From Cyanobium sp. NS01 (GTDB lineage: Bacteria > Cyanobacteriota > Cyanobacteriia > PCC-6307 > Cyanobiaceae): DNA of 64,000 nt. This document shows, in pieces, positions 29,795 to 52,598 of the stretch (positions are counted from its first letter, which is position 1; the number at the start of each line of letters is the position of its first letter). Made by a program: the position numbers and the translations under genes. The notes under the pieces were generated by a model. It had not been told where the DNA came from. It saw only the letters and a program-made list of their open reading frames with translations, and did no database searches. The stretch is from contig NZ_CP047940.1 of NCBI RefSeq assembly GCF_014280235.1, forward strand, positions 1,116,001 through 1,180,000. Direction: 5' to 3'.

Positions 29795-30502
29795 ATGACA
29801 ACGACGGACTGGCTCTGGGTGTTGCATCCCGCCCTGGCGGTGGTGCTGGTGTACCCCCTGCTCGGCCTGGTGCTGCGCCTGGCCCAGCAGACCCGCCAGC
29901 GGCGCGTGCAGAAACTGAAGCTGCCCCCCAGCGTGGGCGGCGAGCATGTGGACTTCGGCCGCTGGTTGGCGGCGGCGGTGGTGGGCATCGAACTGCTGGC
30001 GATGGTGGTGGTGATCAGCACCAAGCAGCCCTCGGCACTCACGCCCGGCCGCAGCGGCCTGTTGCTCCTCGTGCTGGCTGGCACCGTGGCGGCGTTGGTG
30101 GCGCTCTGGCGTGCCAAGGAGGCGATCTACCGGGCCAGCTTCGCCCTGCTCTGCTGGGCCGGCGTGATTGGTCTGGGCCTGCAGCCGGAGGTGTGGCGCC
30201 TCAGTGACAATCCCCTCGATCCGGCCTTCTGGCAATCCCACTTCTGGGGCGGCATGGGGCTCACCGGCCTGATGCTGTTCTCAGTGGCGGCCCGGCCTGA
30301 GATTCTGCGGCAACTGCGCTGGCGGCGGCTGCACATCACGGCCAATGTGATCGCGGCGCTGATTTTCGTGGCCCAGGGCATCAGCGGCCCGCGGGATCTG
30401 CTGGAGATTCCGCTCAGCTGGCAGAAGTCGGTTGTCTATGCCTGTGACTTCACCAACAAGGTGTGTCCACCGCCGGCACCAGCGCCGGCGCCCCAGCCCT
30501 GA
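29795..30502 (+). CDS. DUF4079 membrane protein
   Basis: 235 residues with about six membrane helices. The first is residues 10-28 (HPALAVVLVYPLLGLVLRL), followed by a basic loop (RQRRVQKLKLPP). It matches the cyanobacterial DUF4079 family, proposed to resemble cytochrome b561-like helical bundles; several His residues lie near helix ends. A periplasmic Pro/Ala-rich C-terminus (CPPPAPAPAPQP) ends the protein. The glycosyltransferase gene starts 9 nt later, so they form a transcription unit. Confidence 0.8.
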   Translation: MTTTDWLWVLHPALAVVLVYPLLGLVLRLAQQTRQRRVQKLKLPPSVGGEHVDFGRWLAAAVVGIELLAMVVVISTKQPSALTPGRSGLLLLVLAGTVAALVALWRAKEAIYRASFALLCWAGVIGLGLQPEVWRLSDNPLDPAFWQSHFWGGMGLTGLMLFSVAARPEILRQLRWRRLHITANVIAALIFVAQGISGPRDLLEIPLSWQKSVVYACDFTNKVCPPPAPAPAPQP

Positions 30503-30511
30503 CCTGCTCTG

Positions 30512-32545
30512 ATGCGTCTCCCCTGGGCCGTGGCCCTGCTGGCCCTGCTGGCTGGCCGTTACTGGTGGTGGCGCCTCACCAGCACCCTGGTGCTGGACGA
30601 CTGGCTCAGCGGCTCGATGAGTGTGCTGGTGCTGCTCGCCGAGACCTGGCTGCTGGCCCACAGCTTCCTGCAGCTCGGCTTCAGCCTTGCCCCTGACCCG
30701 CGCATCACCCCTCGGGCGGATCGGGCAGCCGCCCGGTTGCAGCGTCGTCTGGAGCCCGCGGGATCCGCCTCGCTGCCCCTGCCCTGGGTGGATGTGCTGA
30801 TTCCCACCTGCGGGGAACCACTGGAGCTGGTGGAGCGCTGCCTGCTGGGCTGCCTGGCGCTCACCTATCCCCGGGCCCAGGTGTGGCTGCTGGACGATGC
30901 CGCTCGTCCTGAGCTGAAGGCGCTCTGCCGGCGGCTGGGCTGCCGCTACAGCTTCCGCCGGGGCCGCGAGCATGCCAAGGCCGGCAACCTCAACCACGTG
31001 CTGCCCCTGCTGCAGGGCGAGCTGATCGCCGTGTTCGATGCCGACGTGGTGCCGCTCAACACGTTCCTGCTGCGCAGCGTGGGGCTGTTCGATGAGCCCC
31101 GGGTGGCGCTGGTGCAGTCGCCCCAGACCTACATGACCGCCGATCCGGTGATCCGCAACCTGCGGCTGGAGGGCTGGCTGATGCCCGACGAGGAGAGCTT
31201 CTACCGCTGGATCGAACCGGTGCGCCAGGGCGTCGGCGCTGTGGTGTGCGCCGGCACGTCGTTCCTGGTGCGCCGTTCGGCCCTGCTGGCCGTGGGGGGC
31301 TTCGACACGGGCACCTCCTCGGAGGACCTGGCCACCGGCATCCGGCTGACGGCGGCGGGTGGGGAGTGCGTGTATCTGCCCGAAAAGCTGAGCGCCGGGT
31401 TGGCGCCGTTCACGGCCTCGGCCCTGGTGCGCCAGCGCTGCCGCTGGGCCAGCGGCACCCTCCAGACCCTGCGCACCGGCGCCAGTCCGCTGCGCATTGC
31501 CGGGCTGACGCCCCTGCAGCGGCTTGCCTTTCTGGAGGGCATCCTGCACTGGTTCAACGCCCTGCCGCAGCTGCTGCTGGCCCTGATGCCGCTGATGATC
31601 GGCGTGCTGGGCGTGCTGCCTCTGCAGATCACCGCCGCAGGCCTGCTGCGCTATGCCCTGCCCTTCTTTGGCGCCCAGCTGCTGCTGGCCCGCTGGTTCA
31701 GCAACCAGGCCCGTACCGGCCTGCTGCCTGAGCTCTACCGCTGGATCGTGTTGATCCCGCTGGTGGCGACGATCTGCCGCTGGGCCCTGCAGCGCCCGCT
31801 GCGCTTCCAGGTGACCCCCAAGGCTCTGGCCATAGCCGGCAGGCAGGCCGCCGATCCCCGCCTCTGGCTGCCGTTGCTGGTGCTGCTGCTGTTGCAGTTG
31901 CTGGCCCTGCTCAATCTGTTCGGCTGGGCGCAGGATCCCACTGGGCCGGCGCTGGCGCCGGTCACCCCTGCCAGCCTGGCTCTGGGGGTGAGCTGGAGCC
32001 TGATCAACGCCCTGCTGTTGCTGCTCGCCCTGCGCTGCTGCTGGGACCGTCCGCGACGTTCCGCTCTGCCCTGGTTCGCCGTGCGTGAACCCGCCTGCCT
32101 GGATGGCCAGCCGGTGCTGCTGCGGGCGATCAGCGAGGAGGGGGTGGAGCTGGCCCTGGCTCCAGGTGCTCGGCAGGCTGGCCAGGTGGCGCTCTCCTTG
32201 GCTGGTCCTGCCTCACTGCTGCAGCTCACCTGGGGCCAGGAGTGCTGGCCCCTGCAGCTGGCGGCGTGCCGCGGCCATCGCCTCGGAGCCCTCTGGAGTG
32301 GCCTCAGCCCCCGCCAGCAGCGGACCCTGCAGCAGCGGCTCTACCGCCAGAGCGGCCTCTGGCCCCACCGGCGGGCGCCGTTTGAGCCACTGGCCCTGCT
32401 GGCGGTGCTGGGCCGTCTGCTCAGCCCTATTCCCCCCGACGACTGGTTCCGGCGCAGCCTGGTGCCGATCCAGCTGACCGCCCCCGCCCGGTCCCAGCGG
32501 CCGGTGCCGCCACGGGCCTACCCCACGGCCGAGCTGGCGGTGTAA
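30512..32545 (+). CDS. cellulose-synthase-like glycosyltransferase
   Basis: 677 residues. Two or three N-terminal membrane helices are followed by a family 2 catalytic domain at about residues 90-330. Processive-enzyme motifs are LDDAARPE, FDADVVP, TSEDLATGIRL and QRCRWASGT (QxxRW). At least four C-terminal membrane helices follow, then about 160 residues that may hold a degenerate PilZ-like beta domain. It would polymerise a UDP-sugar into an exported beta-glucan or related polysaccharide. No bcsB, bcsZ or accessory gene is adjacent. Its last 28 nt overlap the convergent malic enzyme fusion gene. Confidence 0.9.
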   Translation: MRLPWAVALLALLAGRYWWWRLTSTLVLDDWLSGSMSVLVLLAETWLLAHSFLQLGFSLAPDPRITPRADRAAARLQRRLEPAGSASLPLPWVDVLIPTCGEPLELVERCLLGCLALTYPRAQVWLLDDAARPELKALCRRLGCRYSFRRGREHAKAGNLNHVLPLLQGELIAVFDADVVPLNTFLLRSVGLFDEPRVALVQSPQTYMTADPVIRNLRLEGWLMPDEESFYRWIEPVRQGVGAVVCAGTSFLVRRSALLAVGGFDTGTSSEDLATGIRLTAAGGECVYLPEKLSAGLAPFTASALVRQRCRWASGTLQTLRTGASPLRIAGLTPLQRLAFLEGILHWFNALPQLLLALMPLMIGVLGVLPLQITAAGLLRYALPFFGAQLLLARWFSNQARTGLLPELYRWIVLIPLVATICRWALQRPLRFQVTPKALAIAGRQAADPRLWLPLLVLLLLQLLALLNLFGWAQDPTGPALAPVTPASLALGVSWSLINALLLLLALRCCWDRPRRSALPWFAVREPACLDGQPVLLRAISEEGVELALAPGARQAGQVALSLAGPASLLQLTWGQECWPLQLAACRGHRLGALWSGLSPRQQRTLQQRLYRQSGLWPHRRAPFEPLALLAVLGRLLSPIPPDDWFRRSLVPIQLTAPARSQRPVPPRAYPTAELAV

Positions 32546-35037
32546 CGGGGCTCCCACCGGGCTGCATCGAGACACTGGAGCGCCTCGGCCGGCGTGCTGG
32601 CCCGCTCCGTCAGCCCCTGCTGCACGGCCATCAGGGCCACCGCCTCCGCCACCGCCCGGGACACGGCCTGCACCCGGGTGAGGGGTGGCATCAGCGGCTC
32701 CAGCGGATCCCGGGCGGCGGGAATGGTGGACGCCAGGGCTTCCAGGGCCGCATCGATCATGGCCTCACTCACCCGGGTCGCGCCCACGGCCACACAGGCA
32801 AAGCCCAGGCCGGGGTAGAGGAAGCAGTTGTTGCACTGTCCGATCACGCGCTCCTGGCCGTCCCAGGGCACCGGGGCGAAGGGGCTGCCCGTGGCCACCA
32901 GGGCCCTGCCGCCACTCCAGGCGAGCAGATCGGCGGGGCTGGCCTCGGCCAGGTTGGTGGGGTTGGAGAGGGGCAGGATCACGGGGCGCTCGGTGCCGGC
33001 GGCCATCGCCTCCACCACTGCCTGGTCGAAGGCGCCGGCCACGGTGGAGGTGCCGATCAGCACGGTGGGCCGCACCTGCTGCACCACCTGCAGCAGCCCG
33101 ATCTGCCCCTGGCCGTTGCGGCTGAAGCGCTCCGCTTCCTCGGCAGGCCGGGCCAGGGCGGCGGGGGGTTCTGATCCAGGCGCTGCCACGATCAGCCCGC
33201 GGCGATCGAGGCCCCAGATCCTCTGGCGGGCCTGGAGGGCGCTCAGGCCGGCGGCCTGCAGCAGCCTCAGCAGCCGTTCGGCGATGCCGCAGCCGGCTGT
33301 GCCGGCACCGAAGATCACGATGCGCTGCTCGGCCAGACCGGTGCCCAGCCCCCGGCAGGCCGCCAGCACCGCCGCCGCCGCCACGCCGCTGGTGCCCTGG
33401 ATGTCGTCGTTGAAGCTGGGGGCCTGCTCGCGGTAGCGATCCAGTACCCGCCGGGCCTGGAGCTTGCCGAAGTCCTCCCAGTGCAGAAACACGCCCGGGA
33501 ACACCTGCTGGGCCGCCGCCACGACGGCGTCAAGGAAGCGGTCGTAGGCCTCGCCCCGCAGCCGCGGCTGACGCCTGCCGAGGTAAAGGGGATCGTTCAG
33601 CAGGGCGGCGTTGTCGGTGCCGACATCGAGCGCCACCGCCAGCACCCGGCCCGGGTGGAGGCCGCTGCAGAGGGTGTAGACGGCCAGCTTGCCCTGGCAG
33701 ATGTGGATGCCGCCCACGCCCTGGTCGCCCAGCCCCAGGATTCCTTCCGCATCGGTGATCAGCATCAGATCCACCGGGCCTTCGGCGGCCTGGCGCAGCA
33801 GCTCGGGCAGCCGCGGTTCCATCTCCGGCGTGAGGTAGGCGCCCAGGTCAGGCGGCTGGTGGCTGTAGCTGAAGCCCTGGATCACCCGCCCCACGGTGGG
33901 GGTGTACACCACGGGCAGGGCCGCCTCGATGTGCTCCTGCAGAAAGGCGTGGAAGAGGGTTCGGTTGCTGCGGCGCAGCCGGTCCAGGTAGGTGAAGCGC
34001 TCGAGGCTGCCCTGCAGGCCAGCGAAGCCCTGCCACACCCGTTCCACCTGCTGCTCGAGGCTCTCCACCGCTGCTGGCAGCCGGGCCTCCAGCTGCAGGC
34101 TGCGCCGCTCCTCGGGGCTGAAGGCGGTGTCGCGGTTCAGCCGTGGGTCGGCCAGCACGGCCATGCCCTGGCGCGGCTGGAATCCCTCGGGATCAGGCCC
34201 CGCTTCCACTCTCACCCGGTAGTGCATGTGGGAGCCCACACCGGTGCCCCGGTAGTGGCCGCTCACGGGCGCCGCCAGGTGGTGATCGGCGGCCGTCACC
34301 AGGGTGACGTGGCCATCGGCCACGGCCAGGCCGAGGCTGGGGTCGTAGGCGCGCCAGCCGCCGCCGGGGAGCCACACCTCCGCCCAGGCATGCAGCTCGT
34401 GCTCGCTCACCTCTGGCGGGTGGTGCATCGAGTAGCCGCTCACGAAGCGGGCCGCCAGGCCGAGGCTGCGGCAGGCCGCCACGTAGAGCATGGCCGTGTC
34501 GCGGCAGGCGCCGCGGCGCTGGGCCAGGGTGTCAGCGGGCGCCATCGGTTCGCCGTCGAAGCGACCGATGTGCTCGAAGCCGTGGTGGATGCGGTCGGCC
34601 AGCAACAGCAGCAGATCCGTGCTGCGCTGGCCGGCCTCGGCCGCCAGCTCTGCGGCCCAGGCCGCCACGCTCGGCTCCGCCTGGCCCAGGAAGGGGGCCA
34701 GGGCCGCCGCGGTGGCGGGGGGGTAGCGCAGGGGCAGGGTCTGGGCGCTGGGATCGGTGAGGATCCAGTCGAAGGGGTTGCGGCGCAGCGTTTCCACCAC
34801 GGTGGTGGTGTGGATCCAGAGCTCCTGGCGCAGGCCCGTGAACCAGATCTCAGTGGTGTCGGCGCCGCCGGGCTCCTCCACTGGCGTGCTGCCGGCCGGC
34901 GGTTCCCGCACTGTGAGGGTGTGGCTCAGCAGCCGCTGCGTGGCGCTCTGCCGGGGGGTGAGCCGCAGGGTGTGCGGCTCCAGGAACACGGGTTGGTCGT
35001 AGTGGTAGTGGAGGGTGTGGTGGATCCGGAAGAACAT
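32518..35037 (-). CDS. transglutaminase-like domain fused to NAD-type malic enzyme
   Basis: One uninterrupted frame of 839 residues carries two complete enzymes. Residues 1-285 are a bacterial transglutaminase-like/cysteine-protease protein: N-terminal FRIHHTLHYHYDQPVFLEPH, the triad region with Cys178 (RRGACRDTA), His216 (ELHAWAEVW) and Asp232 (YDPSLG). Residues 300-839 are a long-type malic enzyme: DTAFSPEERR, VVYTPTVG with Tyr378, HWEDFGK with Glu521/Asp522, DDIQGTSG with Asp544/545, NAD site FGAGTAGCGIAERLL, LSNPTN and GQCNNCFLYPG. Malic enzyme decarboxylates malate to pyruvate. Normally both are separate proteins. I confirmed by hand translation that no stop lies at the junction (34,150-34,240). 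ATG for Met292 could allow internal initiation, but no clear ribosome site precedes it. Confidence 0.9.
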   Translation of the reverse strand: MFFRIHHTLHYHYDQPVFLEPHTLRLTPRQSATQRLLSHTLTVREPPAGSTPVEEPGGADTTEIWFTGLRQELWIHTTTVVETLRRNPFDWILTDPSAQTLPLRYPPATAAALAPFLGQAEPSVAAWAAELAAEAGQRSTDLLLLLADRIHHGFEHIGRFDGEPMAPADTLAQRRGACRDTAMLYVAACRSLGLAARFVSGYSMHHPPEVSEHELHAWAEVWLPGGGWRAYDPSLGLAVADGHVTLVTAADHHLAAPVSGHYRGTGVGSHMHYRVRVEAGPDPEGFQPRQGMAVLADPRLNRDTAFSPEERRSLQLEARLPAAVESLEQQVERVWQGFAGLQGSLERFTYLDRLRRSNRTLFHAFLQEHIEAALPVVYTPTVGRVIQGFSYSHQPPDLGAYLTPEMEPRLPELLRQAAEGPVDLMLITDAEGILGLGDQGVGGIHICQGKLAVYTLCSGLHPGRVLAVALDVGTDNAALLNDPLYLGRRQPRLRGEAYDRFLDAVVAAAQQVFPGVFLHWEDFGKLQARRVLDRYREQAPSFNDDIQGTSGVAAAAVLAACRGLGTGLAEQRIVIFGAGTAGCGIAERLLRLLQAAGLSALQARQRIWGLDRRGLIVAAPGSEPPAALARPAEEAERFSRNGQGQIGLLQVVQQVRPTVLIGTSTVAGAFDQAVVEAMAAGTERPVILPLSNPTNLAEASPADLLAWSGGRALVATGSPFAPVPWDGQERVIGQCNNCFLYPGLGFACVAVGATRVSEAMIDAALEALASTIPAARDPLEPLMPPLTRVQAVSRAVAEAVALMAVQQGLTERASTPAEALQCLDAARWEPRYTASSAVG

Positions 35038-36589: not shown

Positions 36590-37168
36590 CTATGGAAGGT
36601 CTGCGGCATCCATTGCACTCCTTTCCCCCTTCAACCCATCAAACCCACAGCGCAGCACCGCCAGGGCGTCATCCGGCAGGCCCAGAAAGCCGTCGAGCCA
36701 GGGATCGCCGCTGGGGGGCACCCGCGCCACGCCCACCAGACAACCCTGGCCGCGGGCATCCAGGGGGCTGCCCTTGGCGTGGTGGCGCTGGCCAGCCACC
36801 GATCCTGTGCTGAGATCCGTGGTCACCAGCAGCGGCGGCGGACGGTAGAGCCCGGCCCAGCTGCAATGGAAGCGCGCCTCGAAGCGCAGCGTCACGGCGC
36901 CGCTGGCCGGCACGAGCTGGCCGGCGAGAGTGAGGGGTTCGATGGCGATCTGCAGCCCCGGCGGCAGGGGCAGCACCAGCACCTGCGTTGTGCGCCAGTT
37001 CAGCGGGGGGATGCTGAGGTCGGCTGGGTCGAAGACGATCTCCAGCCTGTCGTCAACAGGGGTGCAGGTTGCCCTGCCGCTGCCGCCCCGGGCGTCGTAG
37101 CGGAAGCGTGGGTAGCGGCCGATCGCCAGCCCGCAGCCCGCCTGGGTGTGCAGCTGCAGGCTGGTCAT
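36590..37168 (-). CDS. conserved hypothetical protein
   Basis: 192 residues from ATG 37168. Beta-rich, no membrane helix. Segments GRYPRFRYDARGGSGRATC, DLSIPPLNWRTTQVL, LPLPPGLQIAIEPLTLAG and LDGFLGLPDDALAVLRC look conserved in style, and I recall similar proteins in marine picocyanobacteria, but no domain name can be given. It may bind a hydrophobic ligand, judging only from the alternating hydrophobic strands. It lies 32 nt downstream of the PPC-glutaredoxin gene on the same strand. Confidence 0.75.
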   Translation of the reverse strand: MTSLQLHTQAGCGLAIGRYPRFRYDARGGSGRATCTPVDDRLEIVFDPADLSIPPLNWRTTQVLVLPLPPGLQIAIEPLTLAGQLVPASGAVTLRFEARFHCSWAGLYRPPPLLVTTDLSTGSVAGQRHHAKGSPLDARGQGCLVGVARVPPSGDPWLDGFLGLPDDALAVLRCGFDGLKGERSAMDAADLP

Positions 37169-37200
37169 GGCAACAGGCGGGCTTGAGCGGACACAACCCT

Positions 37201-37806
37201 TCAGGCGCCGCGGAGGCCATCGAGGCTGCCGCGGGCGTGAAGCTCGGCGAGGGCGTCATAGCCCCCGATGAAGGCGCCGTCGATGAACACCTGGGGCACG
37301 CTGCCCGGCTGGCTGGGCTCGATCACCCGGTGAGCAATGCCAAGGGTGCGCAGCATGCGCAGCGCCCGCGCTGAGAACGGGCAGCCCGGCAGCACCGCCA
37401 CCTCCACCCGGGGCACCGTGGCGGCCTGGGCCAGGGGCACCATCAGGGGTTCAGCGCTCTGCTGCTCGGGGCCCGGCTCCGCATCGAACAGCCCCACCAG
37501 CAGGTCGGCGCCCTTGTACACCAGCGTGCCGGGCTCCAGGTGGCCGCCCCACACCTGGCAGGCGTTGTCGGAGAAGCTCAGGTGCAGGTGCACCCCCCGG
37601 GCGGCCACCGTGCCCTGCAGGGTGATGATCTCCAGCTCTCCCGTCAGCACGGTGGGGCCGGCCTCGCCGGGGCACTGGAAGGAGGCCTGGGTGAGGTTCC
37701 CCACCACGCTCAGCACGAAGCCGTGGCCGCCCTCCTGGGCGGCCAGCTGCTCCAGGGACTGGCGCACGTCGCTGCCTGGTTCGAGGTGCAGGGCCAGAAA
37801 CCGCAT
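37201..37806 (-). CDS. PPC/DUF296 domain fused to glutaredoxin
   Basis: 201 residues from ATG 37806. Residues 1-115 are a PPC (DUF296) domain: FVLSVVGNLTQASFQ, RGVHLHLSFSDN and VWGGHLEPGTLVYKGAD, the family's HLH and GGHL hallmarks. Residues about 133-201 are a glutaredoxin-like fold: VEVAVLPGCPFSARALRML with a single redox Cys142 (CPFS), the cis-Pro segment SVPQVFIDG, and GGYDALAELHARG, the glutathione-binding end. The monothiol active site fits GSH-linked reduction or Fe-S handling rather than dithiol chemistry. Prokaryotic PPC domains trimerise; the fusion suggests a trimer displaying three glutaredoxins. Confidence 0.88.
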   Translation of the reverse strand: MRFLALHLEPGSDVRQSLEQLAAQEGGHGFVLSVVGNLTQASFQCPGEAGPTVLTGELEIITLQGTVAARGVHLHLSFSDNACQVWGGHLEPGTLVYKGADLLVGLFDAEPGPEQQSAEPLMVPLAQAATVPRVEVAVLPGCPFSARALRMLRTLGIAHRVIEPSQPGSVPQVFIDGAFIGGYDALAELHARGSLDGLRGA

Positions 37807-37909
37807 GGGCAGAGGGGCGTGAACGGACGACACCAAGGCCCGCAAATTAGGCCCTCGCCTGGCCCACGGTCGCCCAGCAGACCGCCGCCAGGCTCCGGGG
37901 GGCTTCACA

Positions 37910-39212: not shown

Positions 39213-40214
39213 CTAGGCGGCTGGAGCAGTCGCCTGGCTGCCCCCGTCACCATCCGCGGTCAGCAGATTGATCCGGTAGAGAGTGTCTTCCAGCACATCA
39301 GCCACCAGCTCCCCTGCCCAGCGCTGGGGGCGCTCGGCGCTGCAGCAGGCGTTGAAGGGCTGCAGCACCGTGGTGGGTCGCGGATGGCAGAACTGCACCA
39401 CGCTCAGGCGGGAGCCGCTGGCGGCGGGATCGGCCATCACCCGGTGCCAGCCGCTGGGGATCAGGCCATTGCTGAGGCGCTCCAGCATCAGGCCGCTGTT
39501 GAGGATCACATGGCCCTCGGGCGGCGTGGCCGGCAGCCACTGCTCCCCCACCAACACCTGCAGCCCCGGCGCTGTGGCCCGGGGCAGGGCCGTGATCAGG
39601 TTGATGTCGGCGTGGGGGGCAGCCCACAGGTGGCCCCCCGCCGGTGCCTGGGGCATGGGCGGGTAGTGCACCGCCCGGGTGAGGGTGGGCGCCTCGGCCA
39701 CCATCGCCTCGAAGATCGCCTCATCCAGCCCCAGACCCACGGCGATCACCCGCAGGAAACGGCGCTGTAGCGCGGCGATGGCCGCGTGGAAGGCGGTGAG
39801 CACCGCGCTGATACCCGGCACCGCGGCCTCGGGCAGGCCCTGCTCCGGGTAGAGGAGGGGGTAGCGCCGACGCAGGGGGTGGTGCGCCGGAATCGGCTCC
39901 GCCCAGTTGAGCATCTCCTTCCAGTCGGCCAGGGACGCCCCGGCGGCGGTTTCCACCAGGGTGCCGGTGTAGCCGGTCTGGCCACTGGCGCCCTCCACCC
40001 GGAAGGCCTGCTTGCGGGGTTGGGGCAGCTGAAAGAACTGCTCCAGCAGGCCATAGGCCTCATCCAGCAGGTCCAGGGGCAGGTCGTGGCTGGTGGTCAC
40101 GAAGCCGGTGGCCAGGCTGCGGCGCACCCCGTCCACCACGGCCTCACGGGCACGCTGATCGCCCCGCTCGAAGCGCAGCAGGTCAACGTCGAGAACGGCC
40201 GGATCGGCAGGCAT
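39213..40214 (-). CDS. 2-oxoglutarate/Fe(II) oxygenase, isopenicillin N synthase type
   Basis: 333 residues from ATG 40214. The N-terminal DIOX_N-like part is LATGFVTTSHDLPLDLLDEA with FFQLPQPRKQAF. The iron site is the HxD of WAAPHADINLITALP near residue 201 and the distal His of SGWHRVMADP near 257. The 2OG-binding Arg-x-Ser is SRLSVVQFC. The fold is that of plant and bacterial small-molecule oxygenases; the substrate is unknown. No biosynthetic cluster is around it. The frame upstream of ATG 40214 is the antisense of the DUF427 gene region. Confidence 0.9.
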   Translation of the reverse strand: MPADPAVLDVDLLRFERGDQRAREAVVDGVRRSLATGFVTTSHDLPLDLLDEAYGLLEQFFQLPQPRKQAFRVEGASGQTGYTGTLVETAAGASLADWKEMLNWAEPIPAHHPLRRRYPLLYPEQGLPEAAVPGISAVLTAFHAAIAALQRRFLRVIAVGLGLDEAIFEAMVAEAPTLTRAVHYPPMPQAPAGGHLWAAPHADINLITALPRATAPGLQVLVGEQWLPATPPEGHVILNSGLMLERLSNGLIPSGWHRVMADPAASGSRLSVVQFCHPRPTTVLQPFNACCSAERPQRWAGELVADVLEDTLYRINLLTADGDGGSQATAPAA

Positions 40215-40225
40215 CGCGGCGCTGC

Positions 40226-40504
40226 TCAGCGCACGCTGACGCCTTTCCAGAAGGCCACCCGGCCCTGGATCTGGCGGGCGGCCTCCTTCGGTTCCGGGTA
40301 GGTCCACACGGCATTGGCGTTCACCGCTCCGTCCACCACCACGTCGTAGTAGTGGGCCTCCCCCTTCCAGCCGCAGACGCTGCGGTGCTCGGAGGGCCGC
40401 ACCAGGGCGCTGTTGAGGGCCTCGGCGGGGAAGTAGGCGTTCCCCTCCACCATCACGATGTCGTCGCTGCTGGCGATCACGGCACCTTTCCAGCTCGCTT
40501 CCAT
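40226..40504 (-). CDS. DUF427 family protein
   Basis: 92 residues from ATG 40504. Typical DUF427 sequence: ASSDDIVMVEGNAYFPAEAL, then HRSVCGWKGEAHYYDVVVDG and WTYPEPKEAARQIQGRVAFW. The CGWKGEA..Y block is a hallmark of this small beta-barrel family of unknown biochemical function, some of which carry HNOB- or photoreceptor-type relatives. It lies 11 nt upstream of the oxygenase gene and probably shares its transcript. Confidence 0.92.
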   Translation of the reverse strand: MEASWKGAVIASSDDIVMVEGNAYFPAEALNSALVRPSEHRSVCGWKGEAHYYDVVVDGAVNANAVWTYPEPKEAARQIQGRVAFWKGVSVR

Positions 40505-40634
40505 GGTCCATCCGTCAGTGGGCCCATCCTGCCCGCTCGCCACCGCCCGGTGCGCAGGCGCACACCGCGGCCTTGCCAAACCAAGACCCTTCCCCTTCAG
40601 TGGAATCAAGGCATGAGACTCAAGGGAGAGCGTG

Positions 40635-49057: not shown

Positions 49058-49987
49058 ATGCCGTTGTCCACTGCGCCGATCAGCCCTTTTGCGCCCCTGC
49101 CCCTGGAGGCCCTGCCGCCGCTACCGCCGCTGCAGCTGGCCGTGGTGGGCCATGTGGAGGTGGTCACGTTCCTGGAGGTGGAGCACCTGCCCCGGCCGGG
49201 CGAGATCCTCTCCTGCCCCTCCGCCCTGGAGTTGCCGGCGGGGGGCGGCGCCGTGGTGGCCGTGCAGCTGGCGCGGCTGCTGGGGCGGCCGGTGCCCTTC
49301 TTCACCGCCCTGGGGAGGGATGCCGTGGGGGAGCAGGCGGCGGCGGCGCTCACGGCCCTCGGCCTCGACCTCCAAGTCGCCTGGCGTCAGGCGCCCACCC
49401 GCCGCGGCCTCACCTTTGTGGATCGCAGCGGCGAGCGCACGATCACCGTGATCGGCGAGCGGCTCAGTCCCGAGGCCGCCGATCCCCTGCCCTGGGAGAG
49501 CCTGGCCGGGCTGGATGGCGTGTTCGTGACGGCCGCCGATGTCGCGGCCCTGCGCCAGGCCAGGGCGGCGCGGCTGCTGGCGGCCACGCCCCGGGTGCGG
49601 CTGCCGGTGCTGCAGCAGGCCGGGGTGCGGCTCGACGCCCTGATCGGCAGCGGCCTCGATCCAGCCGAGCAGGTGCCGCCGGGGGCCCTCGATCCCGCCC
49701 CGACCCTGCGGATCGCCACCGCGGGGGCAGCCGGCGGCGAGGCCTGGCCGTTCGGGGCCTTCCTGGCGCCCCCACGGCAGCGCCCCGTGCTCGACAGCTA
49801 CGGCGCCGGCGACAGCTTCGCCGCCGGAGTGAGCGCCGGCCTGGCGGCGGGCTGGGAGGCGGCACTGGCGATCAGCCTGGGCTGCCACTGCGGCAGCGCC
49901 TGCCTCGATGGCCGGGGCCCCTATGCGGGCCAGCTCCATGCCGGCCAGCTGCGGGGCGGCAGCGACGCTGTCACGGCACCAGATTGA
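49058..49987 (+). CDS. PfkB-family sugar kinase
   Basis: 309 residues from ATG 49058. Ribokinase fold: [19 protein letters not shown] at the start, the substrate-side [31 protein letters not shown], and the catalytic [20 protein letters not shown] near residue 248. A sugar or nucleoside substrate cannot be assigned. Its last 17 nt overlap the convergent leuS gene. Confidence 0.88.
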
Positions 49988-52598
49988 CCAGCTTGCCCGG
50001 CACCACGATCACCCGGCTGGGGGGCTTGCCCTCCAGCCACTTGGCGGCGATGTCGCTGGTCAGGGCGATCCGCTCCAGGGTGGCCTTGTCCGCATCGGCC
50101 GGCACCTCGAGGTTGCCGCGCACCTTGCCCTTCACCTGGATCACCAGGGGAATCGTGTCGCGCACCAGGGCCGTGGCATCCACCTGGGGCCAGGCCTGGC
50201 CGTGGATGCTGCCACCGCCTTCCAGCTGGCTCCAGAGCTCCTCGGCCAGGTGGGGAGCAAACGGTGCCAGCAGCAGCAGCAGGCTGGCCAGGGCCTCCCG
50301 GGCCACGGCGGTGCCGCTGGCCTCCAGGTGTTCGGCCATGGCATTGCTGAGCTTCATCAGCTCGGCGATGGCGGTGTTGAACTGAACATCGCCGTCGAGG
50401 TCGTCGCTCACCGCCGCGATGGCCGTGTGCACGGCGCGGCGCAGCTCCCGCTCGGCTGGGCTGAGTTGCGGCGGGTCAGCGCTGCCGAGGCCGCTGGAAG
50501 GGCCCTCCGAACTGAACCCAGCCAGCCGCAGACCCCTGGCCTGGGCCGCCTCCACCAGCCGCCAGAGGCGCTGCAGGAAGCGGAACTGGCCCTCCACGTC
50601 GGCATCGTCCCACTCGAGATCCTTCTCCGGGGGGGCCTTGAACAGGATGAACATGCGGGCCGTGTCGGCGCCGTAGCGCTCGATCACCCGGGCTGGATCG
50701 ACGCCGTTGTGCTTCGACTTCGACATCTTTTCGTAGTAGGTGTCGAGCACCTCGCCGCTGATCGGATCGCGGGGGTCGGTGGGGTCAGCCACATCGGCCG
50801 GGGCGATGTAGTGGCCGCTGCCGGGGTTCCTGTAGGTGATGCCCTGCACCATGCCCTGGGTGAGCAGCCGCTGGAAGGGTTCATCGAAGCCCAGCAGGCC
50901 GCGGTCCCGCAGCACCTTGGTGAAGAATCGGGCGTAGAGCAGGTGCAGGATGGCGTGCTCGATGCCGCCCACGTACTGGTCCACCGGCAGCCAGCGGTCC
51001 ACCGCCTCACGGCCGAAGGGCAGGGCGCTGTTTTGGGGATCGCTGTAGCGCAGGTAGTACCAGCTGGAGCACATGAACGTGTCCATGGTGTCGGTCTCGC
51101 GGCGGGCCGGCCGGCCGCAGCTGGGGCAGTCCACCTGCCACCAGCTCTCCAGCTGGGCCAGGGGGGAGCCGCCCTTGCGGCTGATCGCCACATCCCGGGG
51201 CAGCTCCACCGGCAGCTGCTCGGCCGGCACAGGCACAACGCCGCAGCTCTCGCAGTGGATCATCGGGATCGGGCAGCCCCAGTAGCGCTGGCGGGAGATC
51301 AGCCAGTCGCGCAGGCGGAACTGCACCGTGCCCTCACCCCAGCCCTGCTGCTCGGCGGCGGTGGTGATCGCCGCCTTGGCCTCGGCGCTGGCGAGTCCGG
51401 TGAAGGGGCCTGAGTGAATCAGCATGCCCGGTTCGGTCCAGGCGCCGCCCTCGTAGGCGTGCTCGTCGCTGCCCTCCGGGATGATCACCTGCAGCACCGG
51501 CAGCTCGTACTGCCGGGCGAACACGAAATCGCGCTGGTCGTGGGCGGGCACGCCCATCACGGCGCCGGTGCCGTAGTCAGCCAGCACGTAGTCGGCGATC
51601 CAGAGCGGGATCAGGGCGCCGCTGGCGGGGTTGCGCACCCGGGCGCCGATGGGGATGCCGCGCTTGGGGCTGTCGTCTGCCGTGCGCTCCAGGTCGCTCT
51701 GGCGGCTCACCAGATCGCAGAAGGCCGTCACCGCCAGCTCCTGCTCGGGACTGGTGAGCGGCGCCACCAGGGGATGCTCCGGCGCCAGCACCACATAGGT
51801 CACGCCGTAGAGGGTGTCGGGGCGGGTGGTGAACACGCGGATGCGCTGGTCGGTGTCGCGGCCGTCGGCATCGACCACGGCAAAGCTGAGTTCAGCGCCC
51901 GTGCTGCGGCCGATCCAGTTGGCCTGCATCGTGCGCACCCGCTCCGGCCAGCCCGTGAGCCTGGGCAGGTCGTCGAGCAGCTGGTCGGCGTAGGCGGTGA
52001 TCTTCAGGAACCACTGGCGCAGGCGACGCTTCTCCACCAGGGCGCCGGAGCGCCAGGAGCGGCCCTCACCGTCCACCTGTTCGTTGGCGAGCACCGTCTG
52101 GTCCACCGGGTCCCAGTTCACGGTGGCCTCCTTCTGATAGGCCAGGCCGGCGGCGTGGAACTGCAGGAACAGCCACTGGGTCCAGCGGTAGTAGTCGGCG
52201 TGGCAGGTGGCCACTTCCCGGTCCCAGTCGATCGAGAGGCCCAGCCGCTGCAGCTGGCTGCGCATGGCGGCGATGTTGCGGTCGGTCCAGGCGCCGGGGT
52301 CGACGCCCCGCTCGATCGCCGCGTTCTCCGCCGGCAGCCCGAAGGCATCCCAGCCCATCGGCTGCAGCACCGCCCTGCCGCGCATGCGCTGCACCCGGGC
52401 GATCACATCGGTGATCACGTAGTTGCGCACATGGCCCATGTGCAGGTTCCCCGAGGGGTAGGGAAACATCGACAGGGCTACGAAGGGCTCGGCCTCGGAG
52501 GCTGGGGCCGCTGGGGTGCGGTAGGCCTGCTGCTCCTCCCAGATCGCCTGCCAGCGCTCTTCGATGACCTGCGGTTGGTAGCGGTTGCTCTCGCTCAC
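49971..52598 (-). CDS. leuS: LeuS, leucyl-tRNA synthetase
   Basis: 875 residues from GTG 52598 ([19 protein letters not shown]); ATG 52634 would add 12 poorly conserved residues. The HIGH-type motif is [11 protein letters not shown], with [12 protein letters not shown]-like family sequence. The CP1 editing domain includes [20 protein letters not shown]. The KMSKS motif is [14 protein letters not shown] zinc-type CESCG and CPSCG pair lies near residues 450-500. Single-copy essential enzyme. It follows hfq by 56 nt on the same strand. Confidence 0.97.

Follow-up and report, generated by a model that had tools for sequence, protein, structure and literature searches.

A transglutaminase-like enzyme and a long-form malic enzyme joined in one gene in a small group of picocyanobacteria

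A single reading frame of Cyanobium sp. NS01 encodes a transglutaminase-like enzyme and a long-form malic enzyme in one chain, and this fusion is genuine, conserved and lineage-restricted. It looks like a new domain combination, joined in a small picocyanobacterial group whose relatives carry the two parts as two genes. The gene lies in the window, by which we mean the whole stretch of 64,000 nucleotides that was analysed (contig NZ_CP047940.1, positions 1,116,001 to 1,180,000); coordinates given here are those of the window unless a locus is named. The gene and its parts are as follows.

32518..35037, minus strand: fused transglutaminase-like / malic enzyme gene, 839 aa, ATG start, single frame; same frame in genomes G072 and G099
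34183..35037, minus strand: transglutaminase-like half, residues 1-285, with Cys178/His216/Asp232; Pfam PF08379 and PF01841, PDB 3isr, triad kept in relatives
34165..34197, minus strand: junction, residues 281-291; placed by alignments and by the tail lengths of stand-alone transglutaminases
32521..34164, minus strand: long-form malic enzyme half, residues 292-839, with Gly432 at the substrate-binding Arg site; Pfam PF00390 and PF03949, PRK13529, 6ags, residue table

Four Pfam domains, all scoring above their cut-offs, make up the 839-residue product: Bact_transglu_N (residues 3-82), Transglut_core (162-233), malic (357-536) and Malic_M (546-804). The first half belongs to the bacterial transglutaminase-like superfamily, with PF08379 and PF01841 both above cut-off and a Cys-His-Asp triad present. 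All 35 close rows (at least 58% identity, fusions included) and all 68 aligned transglutaminase rows have Cys178, His216 and Asp232, and the best PDB match is the putative cysteine protease 3isr (E 1e-11). To our knowledge, no substrate has been described for this transglutaminase subfamily. The second half belongs over its full length to the long-form malic enzyme family: NCBIfam model PRK13529 (oxaloacetate-decarboxylating malate dehydrogenase) matches residues 289-834 of the fusion with 667 bits against a curated cut-off of 326, and the PDB relatives are the malic enzymes 6ags, the best sequence match, and 6urf. The first-pass annotation had read the frame as a complete transglutaminase-like protein followed at once by a complete long-form malic enzyme, and the open reading frame, Pfam and NCBIfam agree with it. 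An AlphaFold model, built with malic rows only, is confident for the malic half (blocks mostly above 90), for which the best fold match is again 6ags (TM 0.90 by target). The transglutaminase half of the model has pLDDT below 70 throughout and mostly below 60, because the alignment held no transglutaminase rows; the model confirms the malic fold only, and not the domain arrangement.

The full-length, stop-free fusion occurs in three of the 13 genomes of the genus: that of NS01, G072 (85% protein identity) and G099 (83%). The three assemblies consist of one, one and two contigs, and that of NS01 is a single contig of 2,748,087 bases, 100% complete. An assembly or sequencing error, which had been raised earlier as a way in which the reading might fail, can for practical purposes be dismissed, since three genomes at 83-85% protein identity share the same stop-free frame and the NS01 genome is one contig. 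Nor do relatives always encode two adjacent proteins, as had also been considered: G072 and G099 share the single frame, and the genes of unfused relatives are unlinked. The halves are separate genes in six other genomes of the genus (G030, G121, G140, G155, G180 and G203, with the malic gene of G155 truncated at the end of a contig); only the transglutaminase is present in G221, which is 78% complete; and G168, G192 and G212 (94, 99 and 77% complete) have neither gene, a joint absence in three of 13 genus members. Apart from the fusion, the three genomes that carry it contain no malic-domain gene. No stand-alone close copy of the transglutaminase half was found in these three, the only other match being a paralogue at 34-35% identity; the NS01 genome has two Transglut_core genes, one of which is the fusion.

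Pairwise dN/dS ratios among the three fusions (Nei-Gojobori) are about 0.11-0.20 for the transglutaminase half, 0.21-0.24 for the malic half and 0.25-0.29 for residues 275-310. Both halves are under purifying selection by this measure and therefore in use. A stretch of 20 residues at the linker, 281-300, is looser, with dN/dS of 0.21-0.56. The frame is kept open through the divergence of three species: the junction region has no gap among the three fusions and no stop in frame. Stand-alone close transglutaminases extend 2-49 residues beyond the last aligned position (32 loci). At the joint, the malic N-terminus directly replaces this transglutaminase C-terminal tail, with almost no linker between the two halves, and malic sequence is kept from the "PDxxRF" stretch on. 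The earlier suggestion of a true fusion is thus upheld by its presence in three species, by selection on both halves and by the lack of stand-alone copies.

The surroundings of the gene bear on how the fusion was made. Four neighbouring features are relevant.

29795..30502, plus strand: DUF4079 gene, beside the glycosyltransferase; same pairing in G121 and L032
30512..32545, plus strand: glycosyltransferase of family 2, in convergent orientation to the fusion and overlapping it by 28 bases
36590..37908, minus strand: two genes, one without assigned function and one with a PCC and a partial glutaredoxin match
49974..52598, minus strand: leucyl-tRNA synthetase homologue

On one side of the fusion, the DUF4079-glycosyltransferase pair has its counterpart directly downstream of the stand-alone transglutaminase gene of G121. 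A homologous pair is found in Synechococcus sp. CS-1328 (L032), where the glycosyltransferase homologue lies 0.9 kb upstream of a stand-alone malic enzyme gene. On the other side, the two genes at 36590-37908 have homologues in G140 and G030, some 2-3 kb downstream of the malic enzyme gene, which stands alone there; in the same two genomes a leucyl-tRNA synthetase gene directly precedes the malic enzyme gene, and in the window its homologue lies about 15 kb from the fusion. Genes from the surroundings of each stand-alone gene are found together at the fused locus, and local rearrangement is therefore the most likely origin of the fusion. A remnant of the lost transglutaminase tail, sought upstream of the DUF4079 gene where a one-inversion model would place it, was not found in the fused genomes by tblastn with two tails (E 1e-4) or in the printed frames. 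Among those neighbours of stand-alone transglutaminase genes that are annotated, the only one seen to recur is a GAF-GGDEF gene, at two loci from a single genus.

Unfused genomes of the family that carry both genes (n=47, among the matches listed) have them on different contigs in 41 cases and on the same contig in six, at least 29.9 kb apart. This spacing argues that the fusion was made by a rearrangement and not just by a lost stop codon. The simple form of the latter, loss of a stop between adjacent genes, had been offered earlier as an alternative and is not supported here, with the genes adjacent in 0 of the 6 same-contig genomes (29.9 kb or more apart) and on different contigs in the 41 others; the two genes may be adjacent at contig ends, or may have been so in a lost ancestor. 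Both trees carried long-branch warnings, with unsettled bootstrap values for the transglutaminase and a quick method for the malic enzyme; in them the three fused sequences group in a single clade, with support of 100/100 for the transglutaminase halves and 100 for the malic halves, from which we conclude that the fusion had a single origin. In the malic tree the fused clade has four unfused enzymes from the genus as its sister (96). Unlike the malic half, the transglutaminase half is placed apart from its genus mates, weakly, with G023 and G069 (84/91).

Transfer of the malic enzyme had been proposed as well. In a quick tree, the malic enzymes of the whole family cluster with the gammaproteobacterial enzymes and are separate from the enzymes of other cyanobacteria, a pattern that fits a transfer into the family, probably long before the fusion. 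The proposal thus suits the malic enzyme of the family at large rather than the fused gene.

Co-occurrence of the two genes extends beyond the genus. Among the matches listed for 300 genomes of the family, 50 genomes have both genes (three of them fused), 16 the malic enzyme only, seven the transglutaminase only and 227 neither; for this tally the malic enzyme had to be of the long type and the transglutaminase was any row of at least 58% identity, partial matches included. The two unlinked genes therefore tend to co-occur in the family (50 of 300, a genome tally that ignores kinship). By genus, seven genera include a genome with both genes, six have the malic enzyme and never both, and three have the transglutaminase and never both, one genus falling into both of the last groups. 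No further fusion was found among the matches listed for the 300 family genomes, which were drawn from a larger group, nor a second one among those listed for 386 phylum genomes (106 with a match), a sample that overlaps the first; G072 and G099 are absent from the phylum results and so were evidently not drawn in that sample. A scan across 84,980 species genomes listed 80 of its 88 confirmed loci; the matches at these 80 start at residue 227 or later, and none of them covers the transglutaminase half. The same scan missed the fused G072 and G099 and may omit close relatives, so the lack of further fusions in it is weak evidence. Three loci with matches reaching back to residues 227-251 (L044, L101 and L102) were discarded as further fusions, having no significant transglutaminase match (best E 0.59). 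Long frames from relatives that lack the fusion, G242, G084, G023, G103 and G077 among them, were likewise set aside: no frame has both halves, and the transglutaminase or malic match is C-terminal, behind an upstream overhang without a match to either half. A malic frame of 846 aa in G102 proved to be 565 aa at its loci. A full-text literature search on both families, judged from the search results alone, returned no described transglutaminase–malic enzyme fusion.

The catalytic equipment of the malic half is nearly complete. Tyr378, Lys450, Glu521, Asp522, Asp544, Asp545, Asn692 and Asn736 are kept, among which we take the roles to be those of the catalytic Tyr and Lys and of the Glu-Asp-Asp metal ligands. 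The classic active-site Arg, presumably the substrate-binding Arg165 of human ME2, is replaced by Gly432. Counted by rows rather than species, some rows coming from the same genome, Gly occupies this site in 84 of 86 cyanobacterial, 19 of 20 gammaproteobacterial and two of two Loigolactobacillus rows, and Arg in six of seven others. The earlier statement that both halves retain their catalytic residues therefore applies to the first half, where the triad is kept, and mostly to the second, where eight residues are kept and the Arg is Gly432. Because Gly432 replaces the substrate-binding Arg, the malic half may be malic or malolactic in its reaction. Lack of the Arg is compatible with malic activity, since Ala occupies the site in the 6urf chain, which was deposited as an M. 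tuberculosis malic enzyme. The name NAD malic enzyme, given at first, is uncertain in view of Gly432. As a separate observation, the Arg165 equivalent is missing from the long malic enzymes of Cyanobium-like picocyanobacteria, and these enzymes resemble Legionellales-type and lactobacillal ones at this site. The annotated reaction of the long malic enzyme in these cyanobacteria, malic or malolactic, needs checking.

No Ldh_1_C protein (NAD malate/lactate dehydrogenase) was found in the three fused genomes or in G192, unlike G140, and the fused genomes have a partial match to Mqo. With no Ldh_1_C protein and this partial match, and judged on these two families, the fusion may be the sole NAD(P)-linked malate enzyme of its genomes.

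Three kinds of known enzyme invite comparison. With other long-form malic enzymes (SfcA/MaeA-like; PRK13529, 6ags and 6urf) the fusion shares full-length domain content and the metal-site and NAD-site residues; it differs in its extra N-terminal enzyme and in having Gly432 where the 6ags alignment has Arg. With malolactic enzymes it shares Gly at the Arg165 position, as seen in the two Loigolactobacillus rows, which we take to be malolactic-type. The malolactic NCBIfam model is the second-best match of the fusion, yet its 517 bits fall far below the cut-off of 850, and in the tree the lactobacillal rows are set apart on a long branch of their own. According to the available text of PMC7435853, malic and malolactic enzymes are closely related. 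The third comparison is with malic enzymes that carry a phosphotransacetylase-like (PTA) domain, which belong to another malic enzyme type. In the available text of PMC12704298, malic enzymes fused to such a regulatory domain are called hybrid-type malic enzymes; these ME-PTA hybrids (e.g. E. coli MaeB), like the present fusion, join a malic enzyme to an unrelated enzyme-like domain. Their PTA domain is C-terminal and, by that account, inactive (PMC12704298), whereas the present fusion is of the long type with an N-terminal transglutaminase domain that retains its triad. By Pfam, the fusion has no C-terminal PTA-like domain, and it would be a second kind of hybrid among malic enzymes.

We consider it probable that local rearrangement gave rise to the two-enzyme fusion on one occasion, in the common ancestor of a small clade of picocyanobacteria, and that it placed a complete transglutaminase-like cysteine hydrolase or transferase in frame with a complete malic enzyme. 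One chain of about 90 kDa would be made. Long malic enzymes are typically oligomeric, and the malic half would be expected to form its usual oligomer; several transglutaminase domains would then be displayed on one particle. The malic half would decarboxylate L-malate, more probably to pyruvate with formation of NAD(P)H than to lactate; the substrate cleaved or transferred by the transglutaminase half would be an amide. Tethering would give 1:1 supply and co-location of the two enzymes. Gene fusions often point to functional partners, and the present one would be a direct handle on the transglutaminase substrate, because it has no stand-alone back-up and because the partners are otherwise separate, unlinked genes in the same family.

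It is possible, if less probable than the account just given, that the gene is a frozen accident, in which a rearrangement joined two genes, the halves keep their old separate jobs and the tether brings no benefit. The unfused orthologues are unlinked, so that no prior operon pairing is visible; the linker at 281-300 changes faster (dN/dS 0.21-0.56) than either half; and the fusion is seen in three species only in the family, genus and phylum samples. Set against this, the fusion has outlived at least two species splits unbroken with both halves selected, although the same would be seen if two needed genes had been joined by a harmless accident. More doubtful is a hybrid malic enzyme of a new kind, in which the transglutaminase half acts on the malic half, or senses for it, in regulation. 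The tendency of the two genes to co-occur in the family, in a tally that ignores kinship, is in keeping with such a role, and the ME-PTA enzymes offer a precedent, their fused enzyme-like domain being an allosteric module in the available text of PMC12704298. The precedent is imperfect in that the PTA domain, as described there, is C-terminal and without activity of its own (PMC12704298), while here the partner is N-terminal and the triad is kept in all aligned rows. A further elaboration, to which we give slightly less credence, is that a live transglutaminase domain on a malic oligomer acts on a peptide or amide, as a modifying enzyme or a sensor, and so ties nitrogen or peptide turnover to malate decarboxylation, as a new hybrid class. 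If this were true, two stand-alone families that co-occur in Cyanobium-like picocyanobacteria would act in one pathway. Plain tethering or a frozen accident explains the fusion as well as any tight coupling does, including the possible link of proteolysis or cross-linking to carbon metabolism that had been suggested earlier.

Production of two proteins from one mRNA, with the malic half also or only translated from an internal GTG, is improbable. In-frame GTG codons at 258, 267, 275 and 277 are common to all three fusions, and a malic half started at 267, 275 or 277 would have an N-terminus of roughly normal length for malic enzymes. Against such starts, those Val codons are also part of the end of the transglutaminase half, and no strong ribosome-binding match precedes them, upstream pairing with the anti-Shine-Dalgarno sequence being no better than -5.0 kcal/mol in absolute terms. 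Many cyanobacterial genes lack a ribosome-binding match. Met292, in frame just past the junction, is Ser in G072 and Thr in G099; a separate malic start there was rejected, as the position is not conserved and both G072 and G099 lack a start codon where the malic protein would natively begin. On these sequence features, internal initiation at the conserved GTG codons appears unlikely. A promoter scan found no promoter; its single terminator-like site, which lies on the opposite strand, was near chance level.

Elsewhere in the window, a second apparent fusion, of a 92-residue gene with the dioxygenase reading frame at 39213-40511, was rejected, the two overlapping in another frame by their coordinates. 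Positions 37201-37908 (minus strand) hold one frame with a PCC domain and then a partial glutaredoxin match, with homologues in G140, G030, G072 and G099. Neither the window nor any of 11 loci surrounding close relatives, fused or stand-alone, gave a CP_ATPgrasp or Alpha-E match; such matches are present in L201 and L209. The transglutaminase of CP_ATPgrasp / Alpha-E clusters is of the same superfamily as the fused half, which differs in belonging to another clade. The NS01 genome itself has such a CP_ATPgrasp - Alpha-E - transglutaminase cluster (L201:3292-6619), in which the paralogue is 35% identical to the fused half.
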